This document shows, in pieces, positions 27,027-59,122 of a stretch of 64,000 nt of DNA. Below the pieces are notes generated by a model. The model was not told the origin of the DNA. It did not search any database and worked only from the letters and a program-made list of their open reading frames with translations. Position numbers and translations under genes: made by a program. Source of the stretch: Telopea speciosissima (taxonomy: Eukaryota; Streptophyta; Magnoliopsida; Proteales; Proteaceae); assembly GCF_018873765.1 (NCBI RefSeq), contig NC_057924.1, positions 124,001 through 188,000 on the forward strand, read 5' to 3'. How positions within the stretch are numbered: the first letter of the stretch is position 1; each line of letters begins with the position of its first letter.

Positions 27027-29700
27027 AACTTATTAGCAGGTACAGCACTTGAATTCCATAATCTGACATTCAGCAAAATAAGCGAAAGTGAGATTTATAT
27101 TGGGGGGTCGTGAAGGCTCTATCATTGGAAATTAACCTCGGAATGGCAAATAAGAATAATGGACAATCAGACACCTGGTGCTAAGGTCATGTGTCAAAAG
27201 GGAAACAGCCCACAACAAGAATATTAAGGCTCCAAAATCATTGTTATTTTTATTTGTAAAAAGTTTCTTTTAAATTACAAATAAATCTAAAAGTTAAGTG
27301 AAATAAAGGGAGTTATTCACCTTGTACAGCCATGAAGTGAGCTTAGAGGCAGCTATCTTTTAAAGACCGCGTAATAGCGCAGTGGTCCAAATTATCAATC
27401 AGGGAGAATAGCACCGAAAATTTATCGGATCTAAACAATGTGCCGAAATCTTGTCTTTACTAATCTAACAGATTAATAGAGGGTAGCGGAACATTCAGTA
27501 AATGTAAGAAGAGTAGTGTTTCATTACTTGGACATAACTGAAGAGAGAATGCTGACATGAGTAACGTTAAAGGTGGTTAATTTTATTATAAAAAAAAAAA
27601 AATTTTTTTTTTTTCTAATAAAACTATAATCCACCTCGCCTTAAGCAGAAGGGTTTCAAGGCAATGCTTAACAGCCTTGAGTAAAGTAACGGCCTCTAAG
27701 ATAATAACCGAAAGGGTTAAAACGATGAGAAAATAAAATTTACTTCTTTCTGAATAAAAACCTTTTATATTAGTGAAAGGGTTCAGGAAAAAACATAAAG
27801 AAAGAGGTCTAGGTAATCTTAGACTTCTGATTAAACCGTACCCTAAACCGACACTGGTTTGCTGGTAGGGAATACTAAGGCGTATGAGAGAACTATCGCG
27901 AAGGAACTCGGCAAAATTCCTCCGTAACTTAGGGATAAGGAGTACCGTTGGTTTACATCAACGGCCACAGAAAATCGTGTTGTACAACTGTTTACTTAAA
28001 ACATAGTACTTTGCAGAGACGTAAGTCTAAGTATAAGGTATGAAATCTGCCCGATGTCATAGGCTAACTAACTTTCTATTATTTAGGAAAGAAAGGAACC
28101 CCTGATCAATGGCGGCCTTAACTATAAGGGTCCTAAGGTAAGCTTTGAAATAAAAGCTAGTATTAAAATTTAAATACGCTGCCTAATCGACTTTTATATG
28201 TAATATAATAACGATTTAAACTTCACTGTATGCTGGGATATCCTTAAATAGGACAATCAGCAGGAAACTTTTATAGTTTATACTATAAAAGGATCTTCAG
28301 AGACTAAACGTGAAGAACAAAAAAAAATAAAATTTTTGTTAAGATATAGTCCAAGTTTACTTTTTTAGCGTTAAAAGCGATTTAAAAGTAAATATAAATA
28401 TTGAGCGAAATTCCTTGGCCGTTAAATGCGGTCCAGCATGAATGATCCCATGATACAACAGCTGTCTCAATGATTGACTCAGTGAAATTGGAATAACTGT
28501 GCAGATACAGTTTACCTCTAGTTAGACGAGAAGACCCTATGCAGCTTTACTGTAACTAGTTATTGCTTGCGTTCGGATTAGGTTGTAGAGTATAAGGTAG
28601 TCGATTAGACAGGTATTTTATTACCATGAAACACCTTTAGTTAATAGGTCGTAAGCTGAAAGGAAGCTTTGCTTTCCTTTCCTTTTCTTTTTTTTATATA
28701 ATTGAGAAAGTAAGTATGCAGTTATGTAATAACAAAACTTATATAAATTCAATAATTATTGTTCACAATAATTATTGAATTAAGAAAAGAGCAATTATTA
28801 GTTTTTATTTAAAAACGTAATTGTAACAGTGACTAGCTGGCAGTTTTTGTGGGGCGCAATTCTCAAAAAAAGTATCTGAGTAAGTCCGATTAATTTAATT
28901 TTTTCTCTAGTTTATATTAGAGAAAAAAATGGAAATTTAAAACATAAAGGTTTGGTTAAACTCTAAAGAGATGGGGGGATTAATTCTAATCAGTTTATAT
29001 AATTTATATTATATAAATAGTAGAACTCTAAATAGAGAATATAAAAGAATTTAAGTGGCTTTTTAAGTTAATTAAAGATAATCTAACAACAAGTGTAATG
29101 GCATAACCAAGCTTAACTGTAAGACCTACAAGTCTAACAGACACGTAAGTGGGGCATAGTGACCAGATGGTTCATCATGGAATGGCCATCGTTTAACGAA
29201 TAAAGTTACGCTAGGGATAACAGGCTAATGGCGCAAGAGAGTCCATATTGGCCGCGCAGTTTGGCACCTCGATGTCGACTCGACCTATCCTCCCGGTGTA
29301 GGTGCTGGGAAGGGTTCGGCTGTTCGCCGAGTAAAAGGTCACGCGAGTTGGGTTAAGTACGTCGTGAGACAGTACGGTCCCTATCTTCTATGGGAAATTA
29401 GAGTCAAAAAAGAATCTGTCCTTTGTACGCAAGGATTTGGATGGACTAACCTCTTGTTTACCTGTTGTTTATTTTTTATAATAGTAATTCTATTTACACT
29501 AATTAGAATTACATAAATAAGCACGGCAGGAAAGCTACGTTGGGAATGGAGAAAGGCTGAAAGCATCTAAAGCCTGAAATCATCCTTTATATACTCTATA
29601 TATATACGTAATAGACTATTACGAAATCTATATTACTGTAGTGGTAATATATAGGTAAGAGCTGTAAGTATGGTAACATATTAAGGCATCTTATACTAAT
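27027..29700 (+). rRNA. rnl: Mitochondrial large-subunit rRNA, 3' part (domain II to the end)
   Basis: Starts inside domain II at GGTACAGCACTTG (the counterpart of GGTAGAGCACTG in bacterial 23S rRNA) and continues through conserved blocks: AAAGACCGCGTAATAGC, then ACTATAAGGGTCCTAAGGT, GACGAGAAGACCC, GCTAGGGATAACAGG, CCTCGATGTCGACTC and CGTCGTGAGACAGT. It ends soon after CTGAAAGCATCTAA, with the exact 3' end uncertain. A group I intron interrupts it at 28140-28403. AT-rich hairpin expansions occur near 28660-28830 and 28905-29050. The 5' third is at 58190-59122, so this fragment alone could not make a normal rRNA. Confidence 0.93.
28140..28403 (+). other. Group I intron in rnl (site L1931 by my count), no ORF
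   Basis: 264 nt inserted within the conserved CCTAAGGTAGCGAAAT motif. The upstream exon ends in T and the intron ends in G, as group I introns require. The core has AATCAGCAGGAAAC followed by GGATCTTCAGAGACT. The same two core strings occur in the atp9 intron. It is too short to encode a homing endonuclease. Confidence 0.85.
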
Positions 29701-29853
29701 TTATTATAAACTTGATTAGATCTTATCGCAAAAAAAAAACTCTTTCTTATTGATTTAGACTCGAATAATTAATTATATTTTATATCACATGTTTTAGACT
29801 TATTTCTTTATAAAAAAAAATATCTATAGATAAAGACTAGTAATATTAAATAA

Positions 29854-29925
29854 AGGAAATTAGCTCAGTTGGTAGAGCGATCGCCTTACAAGCGATTTGT
29901 CAAGGGTTCAAATCCTTTATTTCCT
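29854..29925 (+). tRNA. trnV: tRNA-Val (anticodon TAC)
   Basis: Full cloverleaf with acceptor AGGAAAT pairing ATTTCCT, D-arm GCTCAGTTGGTAGAGC, and a 5-bp anticodon stem ATCGC/GCGAT around loop CTTACAA. It follows rnl and is the only tRNA between rnl and cob. Confidence 0.95.
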
Positions 29926-30681
29926 AGATAACAAAATATAAAAATAACATCTTATTAGTTTAATAAACAGCTATCTTCTTTATTCATTCTAATCAATAAA
30001 CATCTTAAATTTATTAGATATAAATTTATAAATTTAAATAACATCGGTTAAATTAACCCGAATAAGATGAAATGTAAAATCTTAAATCATTTTTATGTTT
30101 TAGAAGCTGTTAAATCTTTAAAGATATTCAAAAATGAAACAATTAAAAAACTTAAATTCATGTAATAAGTTAAGTCTTTTAATAACATTTAATCAACTAA
30201 TCTATTTACAGGAATCCATTAGTGTAAATATTACCTTATTAAAAAAAAAAAGAATAATATAGAGTTCAAGTTATTGAACTAAAGCATTGTTTAATAAACT
30301 TCTTTCTATTAATGGAACAAAGCTTTAAGATAAAACGAAAAAGGCTTAACTTCTTACAAGGTCAAAAAAAGTTAAATTAAATTTAAATGTTTTCTTTATA
30401 AGAAAGGGTCATAAAAAAAAACATAGAATCCAATCTAATTAAGAAACTAAATTAATGTTAGCTCTATCTAAATAAAGTTAAAGGTTTTTTTTTCAAGATG
30501 TAATTAATGCTGTAGGAATATATGTCTGTAAAATAGGTAAGATAATATATCAATCTTCTGTCTAAATCTAATTTATTATTTTATTTAAATTAGATAAAAA
30601 GATATGAAAATATACAATTTGGTTGCCTTTGCCTTTTATTGTAAAAATGATATAAAAAGGTTCAAATCCTTTATATTCTAA
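29926..30681. other. AT-rich intergenic region, trnV to cob
   Basis: About 750 bp without a gene. It has many short A and T runs and only very short frames. Some fungi keep rps3 in such a gap; nothing like it is visible here. Confidence 0.6.
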
Positions 30682-31983
30682 ATGAAATTATTAAAAAATC
30701 ACCCACTTCTTAGCTTATTAAATAGCTATCTTATCGATTCACCACAACCGGTAAACATCTCATACTTATGGAATTTTGGTTCTTTATTAGGAGTATGTTT
30801 AGTAATTCAAATTATAACAGGAATAACATTAGCAATGCATTATACACCGTCAATAGACGCAGCTTTTATAAGTGTAGAACACATTATGAGAGATGTAAAT
30901 TATGGATGGTTAATAAGATATTTACATGCAAACACAGCAAGTTTCTTCTTCTTATTTGTTTATGCTCATATGGCTAGAGGACTATATTACGGATCATATA
31001 GATCACCTAGAGTATTAGTATGGAGTATTGGAGTAGTAATCTTTTTAGTTATGATTATTACAGCTTTCTTAGGTTATGTGCTACCATATGGTCAAATGTC
31101 ATTATGGGGAGCCACAGTTATTACAAATTTAATGTCAGCCATTCCATGGATAGGGCAAGATATAGTTGAATTTATTTGGGGAGGTTTCTCAGTATCAAAT
31201 GCAACTTTAAATAGATTTTTTAGTTTACATTATCTATTACCATTTGTATTAGCTGCATTAATAATTATGCACATGATTGCTTTACATGAAAGTGGTTCAA
31301 ATAATCCAGTAGGAGTTACAGGAAATTTAGATAGATTAGCAATGCACCCTTACTTTATTTTTAAAGATTTAGTAACAATTGTAGCGTTTTTCTTAGTATT
31401 ATCTTTATTTGTATTTTATGCTCCAAATGTATTAGGACATAGCGATAATTATATTCCAGCCAATCCAATGCAAACACCAGCTTCTATTGTACCAGAATGG
31501 TATTTATTACCTTTTTATGCTATTTTAAGATCAATTCCTAATAAATTATTAGGAGTTTTAGCAATGATAGCTGCAATTTTAGTTTTATTCTTAATGCCAA
31601 TTGTAGATTTAAGTAGATTAAGAGGAAATGCATTTAAACCATTTAGTAAAATAGCTTTCGCTATTTTTGCTGTAAACTTTTTACTATTAATGTGGTTAGG
31701 TAGTCAACATGTGGAATCACCTTATGTTGAAATTGGTCAAATATGTACAGCTTATTATTTTGCTCATTTCTTAGTTATAATTCCAGCTATTTCTATTTTT
31801 GAAAATACATTAATGGATGTAGCTCTATCACAAAAGAGCCAAGAGAATAAGGTAGCTGCTACCCTATTCAAAAACAATAATCTATCTTTGAATAAAATCG
31901 CTGGTACTCGATTTTATTCAAAAGGGACAAAACCAAACAAATCCTTTGCTTCTTCTAAATTAATGGCTATAAAAAAGTTTTAG
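30682..31983 (+). CDS. cob: Apocytochrome b
   Basis: 433 residues. It is the central subunit of respiratory complex III in the inner mitochondrial membrane and carries haems bL and bH and both quinone sites. Visible marks are [18 protein letters not shown] (first pair of haem histidines), [16 protein letters not shown] (second pair), [18 protein letters not shown] (Qo site, PEWY) and eight hydrophobic segments. The start has no close in-frame rival and the family alignment begins with it. The protein is about 45 residues longer than usual: after [12 protein letters not shown] the tail is hydrophilic and rich in Lys, Ser and Asn. There are no introns, which is unusual for a fungal cob. Codons are strongly AT-biased. 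Confidence 0.98.
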
Positions 31984-32374: not shown

Positions 32375-32536
32375 AATTGTTATTATTTAAAAGGAAAGTC
32401 CGGGACTTATTTACCAAAATCTTTATAGATCTTGTATAAACAAGGGAATTCTAAAGAAAATAATCGATTATTATATTATAATAAAATAGTATTGTAATCG
32501 GCGAGCTAAAAATCCTTTGGTTAGTCCTTAACATAA

Positions 32537-32578
<42 letters not shown>

Positions 32579-32665
32579 ATGCTAAAGATATAGATCCTAT
32601 CTTCAGTAAAGTGTAATTAACAAATTAAACATAATCCGGCTTATTTAAATCTATATTCTATAAAA
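32375..32665 (+). ncRNA. rnpB: Probable mitochondrial RNase P RNA
   Basis: Two conserved blocks of RNase P RNA frame this stretch in the right order: AAGGAAAGTCCGGGAC (CR-I, 32391-32406) and ATAATCCGGCTTAT (CR-V, 32631-32644). They can pair to form the P4 core helix. The region between is AT-rich, with a TA repeat at about 32543-32571 filling a variable stem. It would process the 5' ends of mitochondrial tRNAs. The gene ends are estimates. Confidence 0.75.
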
Positions 32666-32874
32666 TAAAAATTAGAAGAAAAATGCGTTAGATGATTTAA
32701 TGTCAAACATTTTTTCTTAAAAGAAAGTTAGATCTGTTAAAATATATTAGCTGATTTCTATAATATATTAATAAGTTATTGTTATATTAGATAAAAAAGA
32801 TTGAATAAAAAAAAAATTACAATGGCAATGACAATGCAAACAGAATAATAGAAACTAGAACAAAAAAAAATTAA

Positions 32875-34518
<1,644 letters not shown>

Positions 34519-34815: not shown

Positions 34816-36306
34816 ATGTTAACAATATTATTAGTTACTCCTTTAATAGGTATATTAATTATGCTATTAAAAAATCAATCAGTTAAACTGAACCTAAATA
34901 AAAAAATTACAAAATCAGTAGAATCAATATATTATAAAGACATAGCGTTAGTATTTTCTGTAATAAACTTCCTATTATCGTTAGTATTATGGGCAAATTT
35001 TGACAGAAATAGCTCTGCAGCACAATTTGTAACAGAATATAATGAATTAAGTTTTTGTCATTTTACATTAGCAGTAGATGGTATTTCCATATTTTTTATA
35101 ATATTAACATGTTTATTATTTCCAATAATATTTTTAGCAGATTATAAAGCAATAAAAGATAATGTAAGAAGATATCAAATAATAATGTTATTACTAGAAA
35201 CATTATTAATTGCAGTTTTTACAGTAAAAGATATACTACTTTTCTACATCTTTTTTGAAAGTATATTACCGCCATTATTTTTATTAATAGGATTATTTGG
35301 ATCTAGTAGAAAAGTACGAGCTAGTTTTCATTTATTTTTATATACATTGTTTGGATCATTAGCAATGTTATTAGCTTTTTTAACTATGTATTATTTAACA
35401 GGTACAACAGATATGGAAATATTAACATCTCAAAATTTTAGTTTTGATTTACAAAAAATACTTTGGTTAGCTATCTTTTTTTCATTTATGATAAAATTTC
35501 CATTAGTGCCTTTTCATTTATGGCTTCCATTAGCTCATTCTGAAGCCCCTTTAGGTGGTTCAATTTTATTAGCAGGAGTAGTTTTAAAACTAGCATTATA
35601 TGGTAGTTTAAGAATATTAATTCCATTATTACCAGAAGCTACTATATACTTTACTCCATTAGTTTATACTATTGGACTTATAACTATAATTTATGCTAGT
35701 TTAACAACATTAAGACAAATAGATATGAAAGTTATTATTGCTTATTCTAGTATTGGACATGTGGCTATTATTCTTATGGGAGCTTTCTCTAATAATATTC
35801 AAGGAATTGAAGGTTCAATTTTATTAGGTATAGCACATGGATTTATTAGTCCAGCATTATTTATCATTACAGGTGGATGCTTATATGAAAGATATCATAC
35901 TAGAGTTTTAACTTATTATAGAGGATTAAGTACAACTATGCCATTATTTTCAACAATATTTATGCTTGCAACATTAGGTAACATAGCTGTTCCTTTATCT
36001 TCTAATTTTGTAGGTGAATGGTTATGTTTAGCTGGTGCATTTGAAAGATCGGCTGTAGTAGCTTCATTAGCCGCATCAGGTATTTTCCTTTCAGCTGCTT
36101 ATTCTATATTTTTTTATAATAGAGTAGCTGGTGGTACATTTAGTGCTCATTTATCAGTAACTGCTGATTTATCACGAAGAGAATTTTATGTATTACTTCC
36201 TTTAATTGTCTTTGCATTTGCATTAGGTATATTCCCAAATGTTATCTTGGATTCTATTCATTATTCTGTTTCACATATATTATATACAATTAATACTATC
36301 CCATAA
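34816..36306 (+). CDS. nad4: NADH dehydrogenase subunit 4
   Basis: 496 residues, a proton-pumping antiporter-like subunit of complex I. Marks include FYIFFESILPPLFLLIG with the conserved membrane Glu, PLVPFHLWLPLAHSEAPLGGS, and VVLKLALYGSLRI with the key Lys, within about 13-14 hydrophobic segments. The length is normal and the frame unbroken. It is preceded by a long A run and lies between cox1 and nad2 on the same strand, consistent with long polycistronic transcripts. Confidence 0.98.
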   Translation: MLTILLVTPLIGILIMLLKNQSVKLNLNKKITKSVESIYYKDIALVFSVINFLLSLVLWANFDRNSSAAQFVTEYNELSFCHFTLAVDGISIFFIILTCLLFPIIFLADYKAIKDNVRRYQIIMLLLETLLIAVFTVKDILLFYIFFESILPPLFLLIGLFGSSRKVRASFHLFLYTLFGSLAMLLAFLTMYYLTGTTDMEILTSQNFSFDLQKILWLAIFFSFMIKFPLVPFHLWLPLAHSEAPLGGSILLAGVVLKLALYGSLRILIPLLPEATIYFTPLVYTIGLITIIYASLTTLRQIDMKVIIAYSSIGHVAIILMGAFSNNIQGIEGSILLGIAHGFISPALFIITGGCLYERYHTRVLTYYRGLSTTMPLFSTIFMLATLGNIAVPLSSNFVGEWLCLAGAFERSAVVASLAASGIFLSAAYSIFFYNRVAGGTFSAHLSVTADLSRREFYVLLPLIVFAFALGIFPNVILDSIHYSVSHILYTINTIP

Positions 36307-36420: not shown

Positions 36421-38064
36421 ATGTTAATATCAGGATTATTTATATTATTATTTATATCAGCAATTTCAGCTCAAAGAATTAATGGAATCAATATAAACAG
36501 AGCGGCTGCTTTAGTATTACTTTATTCGTTTATTCTATCTATAGATACATTAAATGTATCAGTAATAGGATCAGGTATAGGAGTATATGGAGGGCTTTAT
36601 CAAGTAACAGTTTTATCTAAAATCGTTGAAAGTTTTATTTATATATTAGCAGCTATGATTTTAGCAAACACAATTTCTACTGAAAATAAAAGTGCAGTAA
36701 GATCAGAATATTCAATTATAGCATTATTTACAGTAGTAGGTGGTATTCTATTAATTAAAAGTAATGACTTAGTATCTATGTACTTATCAATTGAATTACA
36801 AAGTTTTGGACTTTATGTTCTAGCTACAATATATAGAGATAGTCAAGCAGCAACTTATGCTGGTTTAAAATATTTTTTATTAGGAGGACTATCATCAGGG
36901 TTTATTTTATTGGGATCATCGATTATATATGCTTATACAGGTGTAACAAATTTAGAATCAATATATCTGTTAATGTCAGAACAGAGTCTAATTCAGTTAA
37001 ATAATATAGCAACTGAAAATGGTAAATGGCTAGAATTATCATCAAATTTTTTTTCATTTGTACAAATAGGATTATTAGTTATGACAGTTGGATTTTTATT
37101 TAAAGTAGCAGCAGCACCATTTCATAATTGGGCTCCAGATGTTTACGACGGAGTTCCTGTAAAAGTAACTACTTGGTTAGCTATAATGGCAAAAATTTCT
37201 ATTTTAACTTTTTTACTAGATTTGGTTATAGCATCATCAGTATCAAAAAAGATTATTAGTCTAGAAACATCTTTATCAAGTTTAACTGAATCTAGTGCAG
37301 CCGCCAATTTAACTAATTTACTGTTAATAGCTTCACTTCTTTCATTATTGGTAGGAACAATAGTAGGGTTAGCACAATCTCGAATAAAACGATTGTTAGC
37401 TTATAGTACTATTTCACATGTTGGGTTTTTATTATTAGCTATAGCTATAAACACACAAGATTCTACTGAGTCATTTATTTTTTATTTAATTCAATATAGT
37501 TTAACTAGTGCTAATGCATTTTTTGTATTAATTGCTTTTGGACAGCTACGTTCTTTATCAGTAAAAAGAAATAATATATCAACTAAGCTTGAAGATGATT
37601 ATAATGCAGAAACAGAATATTCACCTATACAATTTATAAGTCAATTAAGAGGTCAATTTAATGCGGCAGAACCTTCACCATTATTAGCTTTAGCTATGGC
37701 TATTATTTTATTTTCTATGGCTGGAATACCTCCATTAATAGGATTTTTTGCCAAACAGGCAGTATTATTAGCTGCAGTGAAAAATGGATTTATATTTTTG
37801 GCCTTAATTGGTATTATTACTAGTGTTATTAGTGCTGCTTATTATTTAAAAGTTATAAAAGTAATGATATTTGATCCTTATGAACTAAATGAGTCTATTA
37901 CAGATCTTGACTTAAAAACAGAACCAGCTACTGATAAAAAATTATCGAATAGTTTAAGTTTCTCTATTTCTATTTTAACCGTTTTAACTTTATTTTTTGT
38001 TTGGAAACCTACTTTAATATTAAACAGCGCACATATTATGGCATTAAGTTTATTTTATCTTTAA
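36421..38064 (+). CDS. nad2: NADH dehydrogenase subunit 2
   Basis: 547 residues, an antiporter-like complex I subunit. Conserved stretches are LGGLSSGFILLGSSIIY, FHNWAPDVYDGVPVKVTTWL and MAGIPPLIGFFAKQAV, with about 14 hydrophobic segments and a hydrophilic loop near residues 380-410. The stop codon is followed after only three bases by the nad3 start, a pairing typical of fungi that implies co-transcription. The frame is intact and of normal fungal length. Confidence 0.97.
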   Translation: MLISGLFILLFISAISAQRINGININRAAALVLLYSFILSIDTLNVSVIGSGIGVYGGLYQVTVLSKIVESFIYILAAMILANTISTENKSAVRSEYSIIALFTVVGGILLIKSNDLVSMYLSIELQSFGLYVLATIYRDSQAATYAGLKYFLLGGLSSGFILLGSSIIYAYTGVTNLESIYLLMSEQSLIQLNNIATENGKWLELSSNFFSFVQIGLLVMTVGFLFKVAAAPFHNWAPDVYDGVPVKVTTWLAIMAKISILTFLLDLVIASSVSKKIISLETSLSSLTESSAAANLTNLLLIASLLSLLVGTIVGLAQSRIKRLLAYSTISHVGFLLLAIAINTQDSTESFIFYLIQYSLTSANAFFVLIAFGQLRSLSVKRNNISTKLEDDYNAETEYSPIQFISQLRGQFNAAEPSPLLALAMAIILFSMAGIPPLIGFFAKQAVLLAAVKNGFIFLALIGIITSVISAAYYLKVIKVMIFDPYELNESITDLDLKTEPATDKKLSNSLSFSISILTVLTLFFVWKPTLILNSAHIMALSLFYL

Positions 38065-38067
38065 ATA

Positions 38068-38475
38068 ATGGACGCAATTAACACATTATCAGTTTTATTT
38101 ATTCTTGTACCAATTTTAGGTGCATTATTATTAGTTTTAAATTTACTTTTGGCTGTACATAATCCGGACAATCAAAAAATTCAAAGTTTTGAATGTGGAT
38201 TTAGTGCTTTTAGTCAAACTAGAAGTCGATTTAGTGTAGCTTTTTATTTAGTAGGAATTTTATTTTTATTATTTGATTTGGAAATTATTTTAATTTTCCC
38301 TTATGCTGTATCTGCTTATAATAACGAAGCTTATGGACTTTGGATCGTAGTTATTTTTATTTTAATCTTAACTTTAGGGTTCATTTTCGAATTTGGTAAA
38401 GGAGCTTTAAAAATTACTACTACAGGATCAGAAAATAACTCAGCAAATGGAAATAAAAACGATTATATTGTTTAA
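38068..38475 (+). CDS. nad3: NADH dehydrogenase subunit 3
   Basis: 135 residues, a small membrane subunit of complex I near the quinone channel. It shows SFECGFSAFSQTRSRFSVAFYLVG, including the Cys of the flexible loop that switches complex I between active and inactive forms, then FLLFDLEIILIFPY. Three hydrophobic segments. It starts three bases after the nad2 stop. The C terminus is polar (GSENNSANGNKN), slightly longer than in many fungi. Confidence 0.97.
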   Translation: MDAINTLSVLFILVPILGALLLVLNLLLAVHNPDNQKIQSFECGFSAFSQTRSRFSVAFYLVGILFLLFDLEIILIFPYAVSAYNNEAYGLWIVVIFILILTLGFIFEFGKGALKITTTGSENNSANGNKNDYIV

Positions 38476-45631: not shown

Positions 45632-45664
45632 ATATTGGAGTTTATATATATATATATATCTTAA

Positions 45665-48709: not shown

Positions 48710-49394
48710 ATGTTAGCAGCAGCAAAAATAGTAGGTTCAGGATTAGCTACAATTGGATTAGCAGGAGCAGGAATAGGAATTGGATTAGTTTTCGGTAACT
48801 TAATTACAGCTACATCAAGAAACCCAGCACTTAGAGGGCAATTATTCTCATACGCTATTTTAGGATTCGCTTTAGCCGAAGCTACTGGTCAGACATTTAT
48901 AGGCCTATATTTTTATCCCTATCTTTAATAGCTAATTAATAACTAAAAAAAAAAGACAAGTTTATTTAAGCTTACATAAAAGTAGCAGGATAAAAATATT
49001 AAATTCCTCTATATGCTGAAACGTGCAGCAACTAGAGACGAAATTACTTTGCTTGGCCATTAAAAGGTCACATTTTTCGTTTATATGCATAATCAGCAGG
49101 AAACTTTTTATTAATAAAAAGGATCTTCAGAGACTTTACGAGGAATTATTATAACTTAGATTTTATGTTTTTTATTAATAAAATTAAATTTAGTGGTAAC
49201 AGCAAAAAAAAAAAAAAGCGCTGTGGACTAAGATCTGATTTTTATTAATATCTGACTTGTTTTTCTATCAATGAAGTTATAATAAAAGATAAAGTCCATT
49301 TTCACACCTAAACCTTTAAAGAAAAAAGGCCAGGAAATGTGATAAGCAGCTATTCTGTTTAATGATGGCTTTTTTATTATTATTTGGAGTTTAA
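48710..49394 (+). CDS. atp9: ATP synthase subunit 9 (subunit c), two exons: 48710-48889 and 49350-49394
   Basis: Encodes the proteolipid of the rotary c-ring of ATP synthase. Exon 1 gives 60 residues, [21 protein letters not shown] to FALAEATG, including the Arg-Asn-Pro loop and the essential acidic residue in the second helix. Read straight on, the frame leaves the family at once ([12 protein letters not shown]) and stops at 48928. A 14-codon exon 2 at 49350 reads [14 protein letters not shown] and stop, which completes the conserved second helix. Joined across 48890-49349 the protein is 74 residues, exactly the usual fungal length. The exon 1 end in T, intron end in G and a group I core between support splicing. 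Confidence 0.93.
48890..49349 (+). other. Group I intron in atp9, no ORF
   Basis: 460 nt. It starts after a T and ends in G. The core contains AATCAGCAGGAAAC (about 49091) and GGATCTTCAGAGACT (about 49122), almost the same as the rnl intron at 28140-28403. It has no homing endonuclease, so mobility would need help in trans. Confidence 0.88.
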
Positions 49395-49556: not shown

Positions 49557-49823
49557 ATGAATTTATCATTAATATTATTTTTAATAGGAATATTAGGATT
49601 TGTTTTAAATAAAAAAAATATCATTTTGATGCTTATGTCTATCGAAATAATGTTACTGGCCGTAACCCTTATGATATTATTAAGTTCATTTAGTTTTGAT
49701 GATATTTTAGGACAAACGTACGCTATATATATAATAGTAATAGCAGGTGCAGAGTCGGCTATAGGATTAGGTATTTTGGTCGCTTATTATAGATTAAGAG
49801 GAACAATAGCAATTCAATCTTAA
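49557..49823 (+). CDS. nad4L: NADH dehydrogenase subunit 4L
   Basis: 88 residues, three hydrophobic segments, a small complex I membrane subunit. The pattern [25 protein letters not shown] with its membrane Glu and [20 protein letters not shown] is diagnostic. Its TAA stop shares the final A with the ATG of nad5 (base 49823), the classic fungal nad4L/nad5 overlap that couples their translation. Confidence 0.97.
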
Positions 49824-52800
49824 TGTATTTAGCTATAATAATTTTACCATTATTAGGAGCAGTAACTGCTGGATTATTAGGTAGAAAAATAGGAACAACA
49901 GGAGCACAAGTAATAACATGCGCATCTGTTATAACAACTTGTTTTTTAGCATTAGTCGCATTTTATGAAGTAGGATTAACAATTAGTCCAGTATCTATTA
50001 AAGTATTAAGTTGGATAGATTCAGAATCATTAACAATTGACTGGGGATTTAATTTTGATGCTTTAACTGTATCTATGTTAATACCTGTTTTAATTGTTTC
50101 AGCATTAGTTCATGTATATTCTATAGGATATATGAGTGAAGATCCACATCAACAAAGATTCTTTAGTTATTTAAGTATGTTTACTTTTTTCATGTTAATA
50201 CTTGTAACAGCTGATAATTATTTAGTAATGTTTATAGGTTGGGAAGGTAACCATTTATGCCTTAAATGGTTAGACTTAAATTTTAATATTGTTGATCAAA
50301 CATCTCTCATGGTTTTGCCATTAATTCTTTCAACTAGAACTGTTTCTCTTATTAGTCGTAAATCAACTAATAAGATTAGATCAGACAAACGTATTGGTCC
50401 ACATAATATAGACATCATTTCTTTAATAGTTGGATCTATATTAGGTGATAGTCATTTAGAAAAAAGAGATAGTGGAATAGGAACTAGGGTTATTTTTGAA
50501 CAATCTAATAAAAACGTTGAATATTTAATGTGGTTTTATAATTATTTATCATCTAGAGGATATTGTAGAAAAGAAAAACCAATTCTTCATAAAAGAATAA
50601 AAGAAAAGGGACAAGTTTTTTATCATTATCGAATAAATAGTTATACTTTTACCAGTTTTAATTGGATAAGAGAAATGTTTTACAAAGAAAATAATAGTAA
50701 AGTTATTCCATTTGAAATAAAAGAATATCTTACTCCTTTTGCATTAGCAATTTGGTTTAGCAATGATGGTTCTAAATTAGCAAAAGGAGCAAAAATAGCA
50801 ACTAATGGTTATGAACTAGATAAACTTAAATCTATTATAATTGTTTTAAAAGATAAATATAATTTAGAAGTTCTATACCATAAAGGAGCAATTAATAAAG
50901 GACATACTATTTACATTCCAAGTAAATCTATGAAACTATTTTCTAGTATTGTAAAACCATACATTTTACCTTCAATGTTGTATAAATTAGGCCATTATTA
51001 ATAAAAATAAGTTTAATTATAGTGAAAATCTGAAATGTTGTTTAGCAATTAAAATAAAAAATAAACAACTTAACTTAATATAATTATTTAAGTTAAAAAG
51101 ATTTTTGCGATGTTATTGAAAACGATCAAAGAAACAGGTTTTAGTTTCAAGATCGTCGGTTATATTTTTGATCGCGATCGACTGGTTCAATAATGGGTGG
51201 CTGAAATGCTGCTTAATGCACAGTCAGAATCTGTTCTTATTTTAAGATAAAAACATCTTTAAATAAAGAATCCAAGGCCTTATGTAAATCCTCGTTTAGG
51301 TAATAAAAGGTACAGGGAAATAAATATAAATAAAACCAATCGTCAGATTTGTTTATTTCTAAGATTTGGTAGGAATTTCATCATATTTATTAGTAAGTTT
51401 TTGGTTTACTAGAATTCAAGCAAATAAATCAGCTATATCTGCCTTATTATTTAATAGAGTAGGAGATATGTTTTTAACAATAGGATTATTTGCTTTAATT
51501 TTTGCATTAGGTAATATTGATTATGCAGTAGTATTTTCTCTAGCACCTTTATTAAATGAACAGATAATAACTATTGTTGGTATTTGTTTTTTAATCGGAG
51601 CTATGGCTAAATCAGCGCAAATAGGATTACATGTTTGGTTACCACAAGCAATGGAAGGTCCGACACCAGTATCAGCACTAATTCATGCAGCTACTATGGT
51701 AACAGCAGGAGTTTATTTATTAATGAGATCTTCAGCATTATTAGAATATAGTCCGTTAGTGTTATTATTAGCTTTATGGTTAGGAGCAATAACAACATTA
51801 TTTGCAGGAACAATTGGTTTATTCCAAAATGATTTAAAAAAAGTTATTGCTTATTCCACTTGTAGTCAATTAGGTATGTTGTTTATAGCTGTAGGTTTAA
51901 GCCAATACAATGTAGCCTTATTTCATTTAGTAAATCATGCTTTCTTTAAAGCTTTATTATTCTTAGGAGCTGGTTCAATAATACATGCTATGGCCGATGA
52001 ACAGGATATGAGACGATTAGGAGGATTAGTCAAATTATTACCATTTAGTTATGCTATGATGCTTATAGGTAGTTTATCATTAGCGGCTATGCCTTTTTTA
52101 ACTGGTTTTTATTCTAAAGATCTTATAATAGAATTAGCCTATGGTCAATTTGAATTTGGCGGGCAAGTAGTTTATTGGTTAGCTGTAATTAGTGCTATAT
52201 TTACTATGACATATTCACTAAGATTATTATATTTAACATTCTTATCCAGTCCAAATGGTGCAAAAATACATTATTCAGGTTCACATGAAGGGCCATTAAC
52301 TATGGCTATACCATTAATTATTTTGGCTATTATGAGTATAATTTTTGGTTATTATGCTAGAGATTTTTTTGTAGGGTTAGGTTCTGTTAGTTTAGCTCAT
52401 AGTCTTTATGTTCATCCTAATCATATAATATCCATAGAAGCAGAATTTGCTGTTCCAACTTTATTTAAGTTATTGCCTGTTGTTGCATCTGTATTAATTG
52501 GGGGAATAGCATTAGCTATTTACCAATTATCACCTAATTTTTTATTAGCAATTACTAAAAGTAAAACGGGTAGTTCTATTTATGCTTTCTTTAACCAAAG
52601 ATATTGGCTAGAACTTCTTATTAATAAATTTATTGTAACTAAAGGTTTATCAGTTGGTTATATTTTCAATAAACAACTGGATAGAGGAGCTATAGAATTA
52701 ATTGGACCTCATGGTCTTGTTACTGGATTGTCTTCTATTAGTGGTTTAATTGCTAAACTTGATACAGGAATTATAACTAATTATGCTCTTTATATTTTAT

Positions 52801-52925
52801 TAGGATTAATTAGTTTTATTTCTTTAGTCTTTTTTGCTCCTGTACAAGAGTATGGACAATCAATTAAAGCAGTACAATATAGTCAATTAATTATTCTATA
52901 TATTTTTGCTTTAACTATTTTTTAA
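49823..52925 (+). CDS. nad5: NADH dehydrogenase subunit 5, two exons: 49823-50248 and 51369-52925
   Basis: The largest proton-pumping subunit of complex I, about 660 residues after splicing. Exon 1 (142 codons) ends at VMFIGWEG. Exon 2 resumes with [20 protein letters not shown] and continues through [36 protein letters not shown] with the conserved Lys/His region, [20 protein letters not shown] and a long lateral C-terminal helix. The junction was placed where the protein alignment is seamless, exon 1 ends in T and the intron ends in G (51368). The intervening 1,120 nt hold a LAGLIDADG ORF. Both exons are intact. Confidence 0.96.
50249..51001 (+). CDS. LAGLIDADG homing endonuclease encoded in the nad5 intron
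   Basis: About 250 codons that continue in frame from nad5 exon 1, so the protein is probably made as a fusion and processed. Two LAGLIDADG-like helices are visible, [14 protein letters not shown] and [13 protein letters not shown], the pattern of the LAGLIDADG_2 family. The second helix reads SNDG where most relatives have M-D-D-G, so the first acidic residue is replaced by Asn; the following Asp remains. Such enzymes cut intron-less nad5 alleles and spread the intron, and some act as maturases. It ends at TAA before the intron 3' core. Confidence 0.9.
50249..51368 (+). other. Group I intron in nad5
   Basis: 1,120 nt, inserted after a T at the end of the GWEG codons and ending in G. The 3' part (about 51180-51230: GGTGGCTGAAATGCTGC..CACAGTCAGAAT) has a group I P7-like core. 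The core differs from that of the rnl and atp9 introns, so it is a separate lineage. Confidence 0.88.
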
Positions 52926-53320: not shown

Positions 53321-53467
53321 ATGCCTCAATTAGTACCATTCTATTTTGTAAATCAAGTTACATTTGGTTTTGCAACTTTATTAATAATGCTTTACTTATT
53401 TTCTAAATATATCTTACCAAAATATTTAGAATTATTTTTAACTCGAATATTCATAACTAAATTATAG
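53321..53467 (+). CDS. atp8: ATP synthase subunit 8
   Basis: 48 residues and easily missed by length filters. [12 protein letters not shown] at the N terminus is the hallmark of fungal Atp8, followed by one hydrophobic helix ([16 protein letters not shown]) and a basic C-terminal tail ([12 protein letters not shown]). It sits in the stalk of the ATP synthase membrane sector. It precedes atp6, the usual fungal order. Length normal for basidiomycetes and many other fungi. Confidence 0.95.
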
Positions 53468-53820
53468 CTTTACTTTAGTTGTAAAAAGGTTAAAAACTCT
53501 AATTATTTTAAATTAGTTATACTGGCAATGAAACCAGCATACTTTTTTACTTTAAATTCGCTTTTTACAGCTTTTTTTCTTCTTTTTAGAAGTCTTCATA
53601 GAATATAAAAAAAAACTTTTATTTCTAATCTAGTTCATAATTAATAAAAAAAATCTAGATTGCAAATTAAAAACTTATTTTCGCTTGTTTATTGATAAAG
53701 AATAGTAGTCTTGTTTTTTTTTTTTTACTAATTGTTAGCACTAACTGCACTAAATAAAAAAAAAAAAACAGTTTTATATTTAAGTCAAAATAACAAGAAA
53801 AAAAATTTTTGGTAAAATTT
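53468..53820. other. AT-rich intergenic region, atp8 to atp6
   Basis: About 350 bp without a gene. A and T homopolymers near 53719-53730 and 53757-53768. Confidence 0.6.
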
Positions 53821-54591
53821 ATGACATTTACACACATTCAAAGTCCATTAGAGCAATTTGAAATTAACAGTTTAATGGGTATAAATGCTCCTTTATTAGG
53901 ATATGCAGAATTATCTTTAACAAACATTGGTTTATATTTTATATTAGCATTATTAATTACAGTATTCTTTAACGTAATAGCAAACAATAACAACAAAATT
54001 ATAGCAAACAAATATTCTATTACTGCTGAGTCATTATATACAACAATTTTAAGTATGGTACAAAGTCAAATAGCTAGCCCTAAAGGTCAATATTACTTTC
54101 CATTCATTTATTGTTTATTTATGCTAGTTCTAGCTGGTAATTTTATTGGAATGGTACCTTATAGTTTTGCTATTACATCACACCTAATATTTACTTTATC
54201 AGTAAGTATGACAATATTAATAGCTGTGACTATTATAGGGTTTAGTGAACACGGATTAAAATTCTTTTCATATTTTGTACCTGCTGGAACACCTTTAGCA
54301 TTAGTACCTTTATTAGTTTTAATTGAATTAATTTCATATATTGCTAAAGGTCTTTCACTAGGTATTAGATTAGGTGCAAATATAATGGCAGGACATATGC
54401 TTACAAAAATCGTAGGAGGATTTATTTACCAAATTATGGCTGCTAGTCCTTTAATGTTTGTTGTAGGAATTATTCCTTTAGTTCTATTAGTAGGTATTAC
54501 AGGACTTGAATTGGCTATTGCATTCATTCAAGCTTATGTTTTTGCTATCTTAACTTGTAGTTATATTAAAGATAGTTTAGATCTACACTAA
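53821..54591 (+). CDS. atp6: ATP synthase subunit 6 (subunit a)
   Basis: 256 residues from the first ATG. The open frame runs on upstream to a TTG at 53809, but family alignment supports the ATG, which gives MTFTHIQSPLEQFEIN, a short leader that fungi cleave. The proton half-channels are recognisable in IELISYIAKGLSLGIRLGANIMAGHML (with the essential Arg) and ELAIAFIQAYVFAILTCSYI. About six hydrophobic segments. Frame intact, length normal. Confidence 0.97.
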   Translation: MTFTHIQSPLEQFEINSLMGINAPLLGYAELSLTNIGLYFILALLITVFFNVIANNNNKIIANKYSITAESLYTTILSMVQSQIASPKGQYYFPFIYCLFMLVLAGNFIGMVPYSFAITSHLIFTLSVSMTILIAVTIIGFSEHGLKFFSYFVPAGTPLALVPLLVLIELISYIAKGLSLGIRLGANIMAGHMLTKIVGGFIYQIMAASPLMFVVGIIPLVLLVGITGLELAIAFIQAYVFAILTCSYIKDSLDLH

Positions 54592-54745
54592 TAAATAAAT
54601 ATATTAGACTGTTGATGTTTATTTATCTCAAATCTTTAGACTCTTTTTGCCCTTTTTTATTATATTAAAAGGCTTAACTATTCTAAAATGATATTACCAT
54701 TTTCCTTTTAATATAATAAAAAAGATTATCTTTTATAAAGGAAAA

Positions 54746-54817
54746 GCTTTCTTTGCTTAATCGGTAGAGCGTGATACTTCTAATATCTTAGTCTAGGTTC
54801 AAATCCTAGAGAGAGCT
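54746..54817 (+). tRNA. trnR: tRNA-Arg (anticodon TCT)
   Basis: Acceptor GCTTTCT pairs AGAGAGC. Anticodon loop CTTCTAA on stem GATA/TATC. Reads AGR codons, which dominate Arg use in this AT-rich genome. Confidence 0.92.
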
Positions 54818-54871
54818 TAAATATAAAGATATTATTGAAAAAAAAATTTTTTTTTTTTTTGTATGTATGTG

Positions 54872-54944
54872 AGGGTAGAATTGCATAAGGTATGCATTTG
54901 GATTGCAAATCTAACGAAGTGGGTTCGATTCCCTCTCTGCCTTA
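54872..54944 (+). tRNA. trnC: tRNA-Cys (anticodon GCA)
   Basis: Acceptor AGGGTAG pairs CTGCCTT with wobbles. Anticodon stem TTGGA/TCTAA with loop TTGCAAA. T-arm GTGGGTTCGATTCCCTC. Confidence 0.88.
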
Positions 54945-55016
54945 GCTTTCTATTTGTTAATTAGATGAATAATAAGAAAAAAAAAAAAACCTAATTATTG
55001 AAGATTTAGCATATTT

Positions 55017-55106
55017 GTTTTGCTTTGCTTTGCTTTGCTTTGCTTTGCTTTGCTTTGCTTTGCTTTGCTTTGCTTTGCTTTGCTTTGCTTTGCTTTGCTT
55101 TGCTTT
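55017..55106 (+). repeat. Pentanucleotide tandem repeat (TTTGC, about 18 copies)
   Basis: A perfect array of the five-base unit between trnC and trnW. No coding meaning. A useful strain marker if the mtDNA can be matched to a fungus. Confidence 0.95.
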
Positions 55107-55326
55107 TTCTTTAAAAGAAGTAATCTGAAATGTAATTCATTATTAGCTTTCCTTAAAGAAAATTTAAATTAACATCATTATAAATGAAAGTTCTAAAAGG
55201 TTGATCTATTGGAAAAATACAAAGTAGAAATTCAATTAGTAAGGCTAAAAAAGTATAAAACGAAAAATAGCCGCAAAAAAAAAAAAAAGTTTGCTATTTT
55301 GTATAATCTTTAGCTTTACTATTCAA

Positions 55327-55397
55327 AAGAGTGTAGTTTAATGGTAGAATAAGTGGTTCCAAACCATTTGATGAGAGTTCGATTCTTTCCATTCTTG
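55327..55397 (+). tRNA. trnW: tRNA-Trp (anticodon CCA)
   Basis: Acceptor AAGAGTG pairs CATTCTT. Anticodon stem AGTGG/CCATT with loop TTCCAAA. CCA reads only UGG, unlike the TCA anticodon found where UGA also means Trp. It is the only Trp tRNA seen. Confidence 0.92.
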
Positions 55398-55551
55398 TTA
55401 CCTGTTTATAGATCTAATCTTATTTCTATATTTCTATAATATAGCTAGTAATAAAAAAAAAAGACTAAATGATAAAAAAGATGCAGCTGCTAAATAGGCC
55501 CTTTTGCGTTGCGTTTTTAAGGTTGTTCTTTTTTTTTTTCTCCCTCAAAAT

Positions 55552-55623
55552 GGTTTTTTAACTTAACGGTTAAAGTGCAAACTTGATAAGTTTGAAATGT
55601 TGGTTCGATTCCTTCAAAAATCA
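55552..55623 (+). tRNA. trnI: tRNA-Ile (anticodon GAT)
   Basis: Acceptor GGTTTTT pairs AAAAATC. Anticodon stem CAAAC/GTTTG with loop TTGATAA. Confidence 0.94.
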
Positions 55624-55898
55624 AGTCTTTTATTTATATCAGATGGTCTTGTCTTTTCTTCTTTTCCGTTTATTAGTCTTTATTTAGATGTTAATCTAGA
55701 AGATAAATTTAGTCAATAATTCTAGGTTTAATTAAACTAATATAAATCTGTGCAGCTTGACAGAAGGAAAAAAACTGCACAAACCAACAGCTAAAAGGTT
55801 ATTTAATTAAATCAAAAGGCAAGTTAAATTAGATGTGTAAATATTTCTAAGGGCTATTGTATCTTTATGATATAACATAGCTTTAACATACAAAATAA

Positions 55899-55983
55899 GG
55901 AAAAGTGGCTGAGTCTGGTTTATAGCGTAATACTTGAAATATTAAGGGTTTTTCCCGCGCGGGTTCGAATCCTGCCTTTTCCT
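55899..55983 (+). tRNA. trnS: tRNA-Ser (anticodon TGA)
   Basis: Type II tRNA. Acceptor GGAAAAG pairs CTTTTCC, anticodon loop CTTGAAA on stem TAATA/TATTA, long variable arm, T-arm GCGGGTTCGAATCCTGC. Reads UCN codons. Confidence 0.93.
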
Positions 55984-56161
55984 AGTTTATAGTGGCATAA
56001 AAAAAAGATTCTAATAATAATATATGTCGAAGGCCTTTTAGGCCTAATTATGTTGCATTTAAACCATAACGTTTCTATTCGAATAGATTCAAGCGAAGAG
56101 ATCTAAGAGTTATGATTGGCCAAGACCAGCAATCTAAAAATTAAATACTGTTAAACGTAAA

Positions 56162-56233
56162 GGGGATATAATTTAGTTGGTAGAATATTGACCTTGCACG
56201 TCAAAGAGATGGGTTCAAGTCCCATTGTCTCCA
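56162..56233 (+). tRNA. trnA: tRNA-Ala (anticodon TGC)
   Basis: Acceptor GGGGATA pairs TGTCTCC. Anticodon stem TTGAC/GTCAA with loop CTTGCAC. T-arm ATGGGTTCAAGTCCCAT. Confidence 0.95.
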
Positions 56234-56425
56234 TTATTAAGATCGTCATTAGTGCAGTAGCTGTAAAAAAAAAACAATGTTTTTGCTGTTTTGTTTTAAT
56301 AATAAACTGTTAATATGGTATATTGTAATAGTTAAATTTATGTTTGCTTATTTGTTTTATTTAGCAACACTCTTTAATAAAAAAAAAAACAAAATAGCGC
56401 AAAAGAATATATATTGGAGTAATAA

Positions 56426-56496
56426 GCCCGGATAGCTTAACGGTAAAGCACAGCCCTGAAGATGCTGTGATAGAGGTTCAATTCCTTTTCTGGGCG
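56426..56496 (+). tRNA. trnF: tRNA-Phe (anticodon GAA)
   Basis: Acceptor GCCCGGA pairs TCTGGGC. Anticodon loop CTGAAGA on stem CAGCC/TGCTG with one mismatch at the loop. Confidence 0.9.
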
Positions 56497-56587
56497 CAGA
56501 AATAAATAAAAAGTTTAGCAGATTTCGATATTAGCCGATTTATGTCATATTATGAAAGAACTGTGTTATAAAAAGATAGTTCTGAGC

Positions 56588-56670
56588 ACGGTTGTGGCGA
56601 AATTTGGTATCCGCGATTAGTTTAGGTCTAATTGTCTTTAGACATGAGGGTTCAAGTCCCTCCAACCGTA
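56588..56670 (+). tRNA. trnL: tRNA-Leu (anticodon TAG)
   Basis: Type II tRNA with acceptor ACGGTTG pairing CAACCGT perfectly. Anticodon loop TTTAGGT on stem TTAG/CTAA. T-arm GAGGGTTCAAGTCCCTC. Reads CUN codons as Leu. Confidence 0.94.
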
Positions 56671-56751
56671 TATATTTATCTAATAAAAAAACCTTGCCTT
56701 TTGCACAATAAAATAAAGACTAGACTTGATAATGTTTTAAATTCTCTTTAT

Positions 56752-56785
56752 AATAATTATAATTATAATTATAATTATAATTATT
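56752..56785 (+). repeat. Short tandem repeat (AATTAT)
   Basis: About five copies of a six-base AT unit in the gap after trnL. No function seen. Confidence 0.85.
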
Positions 56786-56970
56786 TTAGAATGACGGTTA
56801 ATCCTTCAAATATAAAATCATTATATTATACTCTTTTTTATTTTTATTTTTATTTTGGGACTAGAGTTATATTAAACCTTCTATTATGCTAACTATTTAA
56901 ATTAATTAATAGAACCTGTAGAGTTATACTCTAATTACCTTATTTATAAAAAGAAGGTTTAAAGCTAAAG

Positions 56971-57043
56971 GCACCTTTAGCTAAATGGTTAAAGCGTCGG
57001 TCTTCGAAACCGCATATTGTGGGTTCAAATCCTACAGGGTGCT
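56971..57043 (+). tRNA. trnR: tRNA-Arg (anticodon TCG)
   Basis: Acceptor GCACCTT pairs AGGGTGC. Anticodon stem CGGT/ACCG with loop CTTCGAA. Reads CGN codons, so two Arg tRNAs cover both codon boxes. Confidence 0.92.
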
Positions 57044-57171
57044 ATATTTTAGATGTCCAAAAGTGGTCTAACTAATGTTTCTTTTATTATACAATAATAA
57101 AAATTTTCGTTAATTAATTTTTTTTTGGTTAGGTTTTATAACCTATTTTATTAGTCAATTTACTCTAATCT

Positions 57172-57236
57172 ATACCACTCTACTCTACTCTACTCTACTC
57201 TACTCTACTCTACTCTACTCTACTCTACTCTACTCT
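57172..57236 (+). repeat. Pentanucleotide tandem repeat (TACTC, about 12 copies)
   Basis: A near-perfect five-base array followed by a long A run. It lies between trnR and trnG. Confidence 0.95.
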
Positions 57237-57354
57237 AAAAAAAAAAAAAAAGTCGAGTTTGTATACTATGAATTTCTGGTCAAGGGCACCCGATTATTGT
57301 TTGTTCAAAAAAAAAAAAATTTTTTTTTTTTTCTAGTAACTTTAATAAAATAAA

Positions 57355-57426
57355 GCAGGTATAAGTTAATTGGTAGACTCACTGATTTCCAATCAGTTCG
57401 TGCTTGTTCAAGTCAGGCTACCTGTA
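57355..57426 (+). tRNA. trnG: tRNA-Gly (anticodon TCC)
   Basis: Acceptor GCAGGTA pairs TACCTGT. Anticodon stem ACTGA/TCAGT with loop TTTCCAA. Confidence 0.94.
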
Positions 57427-57632
57427 TATATGTAAATGTTATTATGTCCTTTGATGGGCCAGCAAAATATTATTGATAATGCGTAAGCTTATATCTACTA
57501 AAATTATCTCTAAACCAAAAAATGGTCTATTATTTTACTGGAAAAACAAAATACTATTAATCAGTGATTTTATTCCATAAGAGTTTATAATATAAAGATC
57601 TTTAAAAGACAGCTAAATTTAAGTATCTTTAA

Positions 57633-57703
57633 GGGCTTGTAGCTTAACGTAAAGCTCCAGCTTGTCACGCAGGAAGATGCCCGTTCGCGCCGGGTCAAGC
57701 TCG
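57633..57703 (+). tRNA. trnD: tRNA-Asp (anticodon GTC)
   Basis: Acceptor GGGCTTG pairs CAAGCTC. Anticodon stem CCAGC/GCAGG with one A-A mismatch, loop TTGTCAC. The T-arm (GCCCGTTCGCGCCGGGT) is GC-rich for this genome. Confidence 0.9.
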
Positions 57704-57838
57704 AAACTATTTAATCTCGTCGTCTAGGCTCTTTAAAAAAAAAAATTATTGCTCTTTTGTAATAGTAATATGGAATTATATAATGGCATGAAATAGTCTA
57801 GGAACTATTTACCGTTATAGAGAAAAAAAAAAAAAAAA

Positions 57839-57926
57839 GGAAAAATTTCCATGGGTAAGGTAAAATACTTGCTACGTATTTGGAGGCGGTTAGCTCTCCT
57901 TAAGGGTTCGACTCCCTTTTTTTCCA
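57839..57926 (+). tRNA. trnS: tRNA-Ser (anticodon GCT)
   Basis: Acceptor GGAAAAA pairs TTTTTCC. Anticodon stem AATAC/GTATT with loop TTGCTAC. Long variable arm, T-arm AAGGGTTCGACTCCCTT. Reads AGY codons. Confidence 0.9.
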
Positions 57927-58189
57927 TTAATAATTTCGGTTCAATCGTAAAGGTTAAAACTCAAGATGTTTAAACCTTTTTAGACAAAAAAAAAAGCCGA
58001 GGTTACCTGTCAAGTGATTTATTTATTTATATGTGATTAAAATTATAAGTAATTGGCCAGACTGTGGGGTTAACAGGAGAGCTTTGGATTAAAAATTCCC
58101 ACCACAATAAAATAAAAAACTTCAAATTTTATTTATAAGTAGTATTGCGATATGAAATATATAATCAACTTTATCTTATTTTAAGATAA

Positions 58190-59122
58190 AGAATGTATAA
58201 AAAGGGACTATTATGGATTACTAGCTAACATATCAAGGAGGGCAAATAGCTCAAAATCATAGTTAAAAAATAATCTATGTAACTCCAAAGGGAAACCAAG
58301 AAAAAAAAATAACAGAGTGAAGTGAAACATCTAAATAACTCTAGGAAAAGAAATCAACCGAGATTCCATTAGTAGTGGTGAGCGAACGTGGATTAGCCTA
58401 TAATATATAGTTGTTTTTAACAGCAAACCTATCTAAGCAGTAGCTAGAAAGATCAGGTTTAATTAAGGGATTAATAGATTTTAAAATCTAGCCAAAGATG
58501 GTAATAAGCCCAGTATCAACCTTAATATATATTTAAACAAGTAGAACGGCAGAAAACCTGTTTGAATTGTTTCTCTCTTTTACTGTTCACGTAAAAGTAA
58601 AAGTAAAAGATATGGGGGAACCATCCTCTAAGGCTAAATATGATATGTTAAGCGATAGAGAAAGTACCGTGAGGGAAAGTTTGAAAAGATTAGGTCTTTT
58701 TGCCAGTCTTTATCGACTGAGAAAGATCTGTAGCCTAAGGCATAGTGAAAAAGAGATGAAATAGTAGTTCTATAAGCAGCCGGAATAAAGCTTTTAATAG
58801 CAAATAACGGTGTACCTTTTGCATAATGGGTCAGCAACTTAATCGGTGGTGCAAGCAGAAATGCCTAGATAAAACGACTGTATAAAAGATGATGGTAAAT
58901 CTTTTTTATTGGCTTTGCCTTTTTGAAAGATATAAGTACCCTCGATTAGACCCGAAACCAAGTGATCTTACCATGGTCAAGTATATAAATGACTGAACGG
59001 GTGTTTGTCGCAAAAAGCTCCGATGAACTGTGGTAAGTAAGTGAAAGACAAATCTGACTTGGAGATAGCTGGTATTCCGCGAAACCTATTTTAGTAGGTC
59101 ATCCATTACAATAACTTATTAG
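58190..59122 (+). rRNA. rnl: Mitochondrial large-subunit rRNA, 5' part (domain I to mid domain II)
   Basis: Begins near TATGGATTACTAGCTAACAT (counterpart of the GTGGATGCCCTGGC region of bacterial 23S rRNA). It continues through GAAGTGAAACATCTAA, GAAAAGAAATCAACCGAGAT, TGGTGAGCGAACG, GAGAAAGTACCGTGAGGGAA, AGACCCGAAACC and TTGGAGATAGCTGGT, and breaks off after GAAACCTATTTTAGTAGGTC plus 22 bases. The remainder of the molecule starts at 27027. The 5' end is an estimate. A 65-codon frame inside (58567-58764) is a chance frame. Confidence 0.93.
59113..59122. repeat. Right copy of the 10-bp junction repeat
   Basis: AACTTATTAG, identical to 27027-27036. The base before differs (T here, G at the left) and the bases after differ, so the shared tract is exactly ten bases. 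Confidence 0.9.

Follow-up and report, generated by a model that had tools for sequence, protein, structure and literature searches.

The window examined here, 64,000 nucleotides (positions 124,001-188,000) of scaffold NC_057924.1 of the waratah Telopea speciosissima, contains what is, judged from its sequence, one complete fungal mitochondrial DNA (mtDNA) circle, opened inside the large ribosomal RNA (rRNA) gene rnl and bearing the same 10-mer at both ends. The insert occupies positions 151,027-183,122 of the scaffold. The presence of a complete, intact fungal mitogenome in a plant scaffold is best explained by an assembly join of DNA from a fungus on the plant, and we consider this the probable origin. 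A false join is favoured because the insert shows no clear decay, because it lies near a scaffold end that carries no telomere repeats, and because fungi of this kind have a leaf habit. That the whole mtDNA circle of a Taphrina-clade fungus was instead captured in a waratah nuclear chromosome, recently enough for every gene to be intact, is doubtful, and the evidence on both sides is set out below.

The insert is distinguished from its surroundings by base composition, with a G+C content per 1-kb step of 21-39% at 27-59 kb versus 34-57% elsewhere in the window. Its length corresponds to a 32,086-bp unit plus the 10-bp end repeat AACTTATTAG, and no further copy of this 10-mer is present in the window on either strand besides the two at the junctions. 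In the Taphrina-type contig NZ_BMRP01000034.1, AACTTATTAG is located inside rnl and is flanked by equivalent conserved sequences. The ends of the insert, once joined, align through the 10-mer to this relative and to NZ_CP053901.1 (pJPM35-3). The limits drawn in the original prediction are thus confirmed by the 10-mer, and its view that a whole mitogenome and not a piece is present is borne out by the full gene set and by ends that join through rnl. Just left of the 10-mer, the rnl of NZ_BMRP01000034.1 (2279-2318) has 35 net extra bases that are missing from the more distant NZ_CP053901.1. We read them as an insertion in the relative; a small loss in the window at the opening site is less probable. 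The extra bases have AACTT-like sequence on both sides, adjoining the site at which the insert is opened.

The gene content is that of a complete and intact mitogenome (Table 1). Fourteen mitochondrial proteins are encoded as open frames (cob, cox1, cox2, cox3, nad1-6, nad4L, atp6, atp8 and atp9), and their Pfam models are mostly covered nearly end to end, with atp9 covered only over positions 2-50 of 60. The small rRNA gene rns and both parts of rnl match Rfam at E values far below chance. ARAGORN finds 25 transfer RNA (tRNA) genes serving all 20 amino acids, and Rfam gives 22 tRNA rows at its gathering score. All protein, rRNA and tRNA genes of the insert are on the + strand. The 14 fungal-type proteins, the two rRNAs, the 25 tRNAs with every amino acid served and the common strand had all been described from the letters alone and are recovered here. 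The standard code suffices, as no TGA is read as tryptophan in the frames and trnW has the anticodon CCA. Two further claims hold in part. Group I introns had been announced, and we find a single intron of 1,120 bp in nad5, with a LAGLIDADG_2 endonuclease frame, and the exons on its two sides join into a single 660-residue reading frame; no group I intron is called by Rfam in the insert, even at E 0.5. The probable RNase P RNA has the two motifs AGGAAAGTCCGGG and AACAGAATA about 450 nt apart, which we take to resemble two conserved regions of rnpB, and has no Rfam match in the insert at E up to 0.5. The mtDNA spacers also contain two pentanucleotide arrays, TTTGC x18.6 at 55014-55106 and TACTC x15.4 at 57161-57237.

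The donor is predicted to be a relative of Taphrina within the Taphrina clade. Among the matches listed for NAD2, four environmental proteins reach 81-82% identity, compared with 75% for Taphrina deformans (84% covered) and 72% for T. flavorubra, and the second match listed for COX1 is an environmental protein with 97% identity. In a 57-row NAD2 tree, for which 56 of the 120 proteins listed were chosen alongside the window, the window sits in a starred clade of six rows with the environmental rows P0001-P0004 and P0008 and not with the named Taphrina species. This clade falls within a starred set of 15 rows (100/100) that includes T. deformans and T. flavorubra, and its direct join to a group of seven Taphrina rows is supported only at 83/64. 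With end branches of 0.29 for the window, 0.09 for P0001, 0.39 for P0004 and 0.57 for P0008, there is no clear speed-up of the window copy. Thus the insert has the core fungal mitochondrial gene set with a fungal atp8, the tree place of the clade and, from cox1 to nad1 only, its gene order.

Comparison with fungal mitogenomes, as the original prediction had proposed, yields Taphrina-type mtDNA as the closest system. The 74,524-bp contig NZ_BMRP01000034.1, a contaminant in the assembly of Streptomyces albospinus JCM 3399, shares with the insert the order cox1-nad4-nad2-nad3-cox2-rns-trnN-nad6-nad1 on one strand, 76-93% DNA identity over those genes and the 10-mer at the equivalent rnl site. It differs in size, with 74.5 kb versus the 32.1-kb unit of the window, in which cox1 and rnl are intronless. 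The Proteus mirabilis 'plasmid' pJPM35-3 (26,385 bp, without annotation) resembles a yeast-type mitochondrial genome, with matches to fungal rnl and cob. Both records, the second by those two matches, are foreign mtDNA in public assemblies, as the insert would be under a false join, with the difference that they are separate records whereas the mtDNA in the window is joined to its host on both sides. Viral contigs searched with the NAD2 alignment and with an rnl pattern gave no match, nor did a phage search or a plasmid search in near mode.

Nuclear insertions of plant organelle DNA are common, and the segment might accordingly be sought among ordinary nuclear copies of plant mitochondrial (NUMT) or plastid (NUPT) DNA. 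A plant mitochondrial or plastid origin is refuted by the fungal Atp8 family PF05933, by the gene order and identity shared with Taphrina-type mtDNA from cox1 to nad1 and by the NAD2 tree, which places the window with Taphrina. In addition, the genome has three other nad5-like places, and their identity is only 67-72%. We give this explanation next to no weight.

The flanks are assigned to plant DNA (Proteaceae). The plant transposons expected on the left are found as Ty3-type, other reverse-transcriptase and Copia pieces, and the plant syntaxin expected on the right is a KNOLLE-type gene, whose frame shares 88% identity with Macadamia and 87% with Protea (among the matches listed, 120 of 1,555) and whose ATG lies 447 bp right of the mtDNA/plant junction. 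The Copia fragment next to the left junction is matched by 39 other genomic copies, each ending at or before 26978 (best 40 of 2,585 candidates, itself included), and the 48 bp between this break and the mtDNA have no other match in the assembly. The right flank from 59090 to 59600 matches itself and one weak 75% place in the assembly, and as far as 59600 it appears to be outside the many-copy Copia family. No second allele and no second full match of the junction flanks was found in the assembly, which comprises 822,943,500 bases in 1,287 contigs. Within the first 258,000 positions of the 63,990,770-bp host scaffold there is no run of N, so that both joins are gap-free in the assembly, and no two adjacent TTTAGGG/CCCTAAA telomere units were found.

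A nuclear insertion left to neutral decay is expected to gather stops, frameshifts and deaminated CG sites. The insert departs from this expectation and is compatible only with a very recent event. Of 253 codon sites in the 14 genes that a single C>T or G>A change would turn into a stop, none has been so changed, a count that says only that each gene is intact over its length, since the 14 frames were selected as open. Over 3,150 rRNA sites shared with NZ_CP053901.1, the window has 26 changes of its own versus 49 in the relative. C>T/G>A changes account for 9 of the 26 in the window versus 2 of the 49 in the relative (Fisher p 0.0008). The window-specific changes of this type fall on 0 of 177 CG, 2 of 170 CHG and 7 of 602 CHH sites. 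We rejected nuclear deamination as the cause of the excess and read it as AT drift, because none of the nine changes is in CG context. The rRNA changes are unlike plant methylation decay and do not clearly point to time spent in a nucleus. We rejected an old transfer because clear decay is missing; its lack fits living fungal mtDNA or an insertion too young to decay.

For the assembly join that we favour, the following course is proposed. A Taphrina-clade fungus on or in the sequenced plant would have contributed high-copy mtDNA to the library. Assembly would have turned the circular mtDNA into a single linear unit with a 10-bp overlap, which would then have been placed, with no Ns at its edges, between a plant piece of 151 kb and the remainder of the 64-Mb plant scaffold. 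Leaves are the habitat of Taphrina-type fungi, and the transfer of an organelle genome between kingdoms is far rarer than contamination. One circle unit with a 10-bp overlap has the look of a linearised circular contig. The insert lies within 0.3% of the scaffold end (151-183 kb from it), for which the chance of a random place is about 0.6% by after-the-fact arithmetic; such a place would be expected if a small piece and the circle had been attached to a chromosome end. The broken Copia copy 48 bp before the junction, together with a right flank outside that family, is also counted for a false join. The contaminant in S. albospinus JCM 3399, the mtDNA of a relative, is counted likewise. The original prediction of a mitogenome embedded in plant chromosomal DNA holds as a description of the assembly, and it is not contradicted by the gap-free sequence, by the single copy of two searched stretches or by the 10-bp end repeat. 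As a statement about the plant chromosome it is disfavoured by the three arguments given at the outset, and we infer that assembly, and not an event in the plant, produced the join.

Several observations weigh against a false join. With no run of N around the insert, a simple scaffolder join would need later closing. Two independent chimeric joins are unlikely to hit the circle within 10 bp of each other (an estimated 10-20 in 32,086). No separate copy of the mtDNA stretches 36421-38475 and 49500-58190 exists in the assembly, where both occur only at this locus; such a copy may have been screened out. A 5-kb stretch of the 151-kb left piece, used as a probe, matches only this locus over its bases 1 to about 4,360 (best 40 of 2,295 candidates), and the left 151 kb as a misplaced duplicate is unsupported by this one probe. 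The fungal family Fungal_trans (PF04082) has no match in the assembly, a weak point since it has none in 14 control genomes either. Finally, CpG observed/expected is 0.64 in the insert versus 0.78 and 0.82 in two stretches of the relative, which is readable as some decay.

The gap-free joins, the single copy of the two searched stretches, the mildly lower CpG and, weakly, the unmatched PF04082 also speak for a real and very recent integration, in which a whole Taphrina-like mtDNA circle would have entered the waratah germ-line nucleus and lodged in a double-strand break 447 bp upstream of KNOLLE. The single unit with an identical 10-mer at both ends is a further point in its favour. Two routes can be considered. 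The circle may have received a nick in each strand, 10 nt apart, whose filling-in would double the 10-mer before end joining. Alternatively, a single crossover may have been guided by a 10-bp match between circle and target. In 400,000 trials, random plant/mtDNA junctions had at least 10 matching bases at a frequency of 3.75e-5, and this rarity is relevant, and in favour of integration, only if the extra copy of the 10-mer derives from the plant target. It need not do so, since an equivalent outcome results when nicks 10 nt apart on the two strands of a circle are filled in or when a circular contig is linearised with a 10-bp overlap. As the relative carries the 10-mer in its own rnl, we discarded a target-site duplication in which the fungal copy was lost. 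Against integration stand the lack of clear decay, the lack of an empty site or second allele of the flanks in the assembly and the place near a scaffold end without telomere repeats. We also know of no case in which a plant nucleus received an entire organelle genome from a fungus. In a literature search by title, which did not extend to the Telopea genome paper, no report of this insert or of such a transfer stood out. On balance we hold a real integration to be unlikely, if worth serious consideration.

The 10-bp terminal repeat would also result if a circle had broken at two close nicks and its ends had been repaired, and no result ties the two plant flanks to each other. Both points are consistent with a physical chimera in the library, in which a plant fragment, a filled-in linear fungal circle and a second plant fragment were ligated end to end and trusted by the assembler. 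One chimeric molecule should not, by reasoning, outweigh normal plant reads in a long-read assembly, and we consider this origin very improbable.

NUMTs are nuclear copies of a species' own mtDNA. They share with the insert the flanking of mtDNA by nuclear sequence without a gap; the insert differs in that its donor belongs to another kingdom and in being full length and intact. In orchid mitochondrial genomes, according to PMC11827590 (citing Sinn and Barrett 2020), fungal mtDNA of about 8 kb is present that is 28-43 My old, has protein genes reduced to pseudogenes and came from a donor in the Ustilaginomycetes. The orchid case resembles the window in that fungal mtDNA, tRNA genes included, is joined to plant DNA, and it differs in that about 8 kb reside in a plant mitochondrial genome, whereas the window has a whole intact circle of a Taphrina-like donor in a nuclear scaffold. 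If the join is false, 32 kb of fungal DNA in a plant reference chromosome will mislead annotation and surveys of horizontal transfer, and the insert would be the mitogenome of a relative of the leaf-curl fungi. If the insertion is real, it would be the first case seen, as far as we know, of a fungal organelle genome passing whole into a plant nucleus. It would mean that a whole fungal organelle genome can enter the plant germ line, and would offer a datable start for following the decay or use of foreign DNA beside a cytokinesis gene.

Table 1. Positions in the window of the predicted fungal mtDNA, its genes and the adjoining plant sequence
Feature	Position	Strand	Basis
Plant Copia fragment	26401..26978	+	PF25597 below its cut-off; genomic copies
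48 bp between Copia break and mtDNA	26979..27026	.	
Predicted fungal (Taphrina-clade) mtDNA, one circle unit + 10-bp terminal repeat	27027..59122	+	G+C, Rfam, ARAGORN, Pfam, colinearity with relative, end repeat
Left copy of AACTTATTAG, plant/mtDNA junction	27027..27036	+	
rnl, 3' part	27027..29719	+	Rfam
trnV	29854..29926	+	Rfam, ARAGORN
cob, no intron	30682..31983	+	PF00033, PF00032
Probable RNase P RNA, approximate limits	32385..32860	+	AGGAAAGTCCGGG at 32392, AACAGAATA near 32840, cob-cox1 spacer
cox1, no intron	32923..34518	+	PF00115
nad4	34816..36306	+	PF00361, PF01059
nad2	36421..38064	+	PF00361; homologues; tree
nad3	38068..38475	+	PF00507
cox2	38889..39653	+	PF00116, PF02790
rns	39987..41503	+	Rfam RF00177, 805 bits
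trnY, trnN	41686..41906	+	ARAGORN
nad6	42084..42803	+	PF00499
nad1	43173..44234	+	PF00146
tRNA cluster H, M, Q, K, T, E, M, M, L(taa), P	44539..46635	+	ARAGORN
cox3	47366..48175	+	PF00510
atp9	48710..48928	+	PF00137
nad4L	49557..49823	+	PF00420
nad5 exon 1	49823..50248	+	PF00662
nad5 intron, LAGLIDADG_2 endonuclease frame continuous with exon 1	50249..51368	+	PF03161
nad5 exon 2	51369..52925	+	PF00361, PF06455
atp8, fungal type	53321..53467	+	PF05933
atp6	53809..54591	+	PF00119
tRNA cluster R(tct), C, W(cca), I, S(tga), A, F, L(tag), R(tcg), G, D, S(gct)	54745..57926	+	ARAGORN
rnl, 5' part (circle opened within gene)	58190..59122	+	Rfam
Right copy of AACTTATTAG, mtDNA/plant junction	59113..59122	+	
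KNOLLE-type syntaxin gene, plant, single open frame	59570..60508	+	

The plant sequence on both sides has some features of its own. Left of the insert, a Ty3-type element at 4408-9899 contains a chromodomain and has two 300-bp end repeats that are 100% identical, which suggests a young insertion. Pieces of a BRI1-like receptor kinase and of a CLC chloride channel are located further left at 21.4-25.2 kb and 88-93 kb of NC_057924.1; their genes are neighbours of each other in Arabidopsis and are not known to neighbour KNOLLE there. Right of the insert, a 54-bp unit is repeated twice in tandem (96% match) at 59379-59487, just upstream of the KNOLLE start codon.

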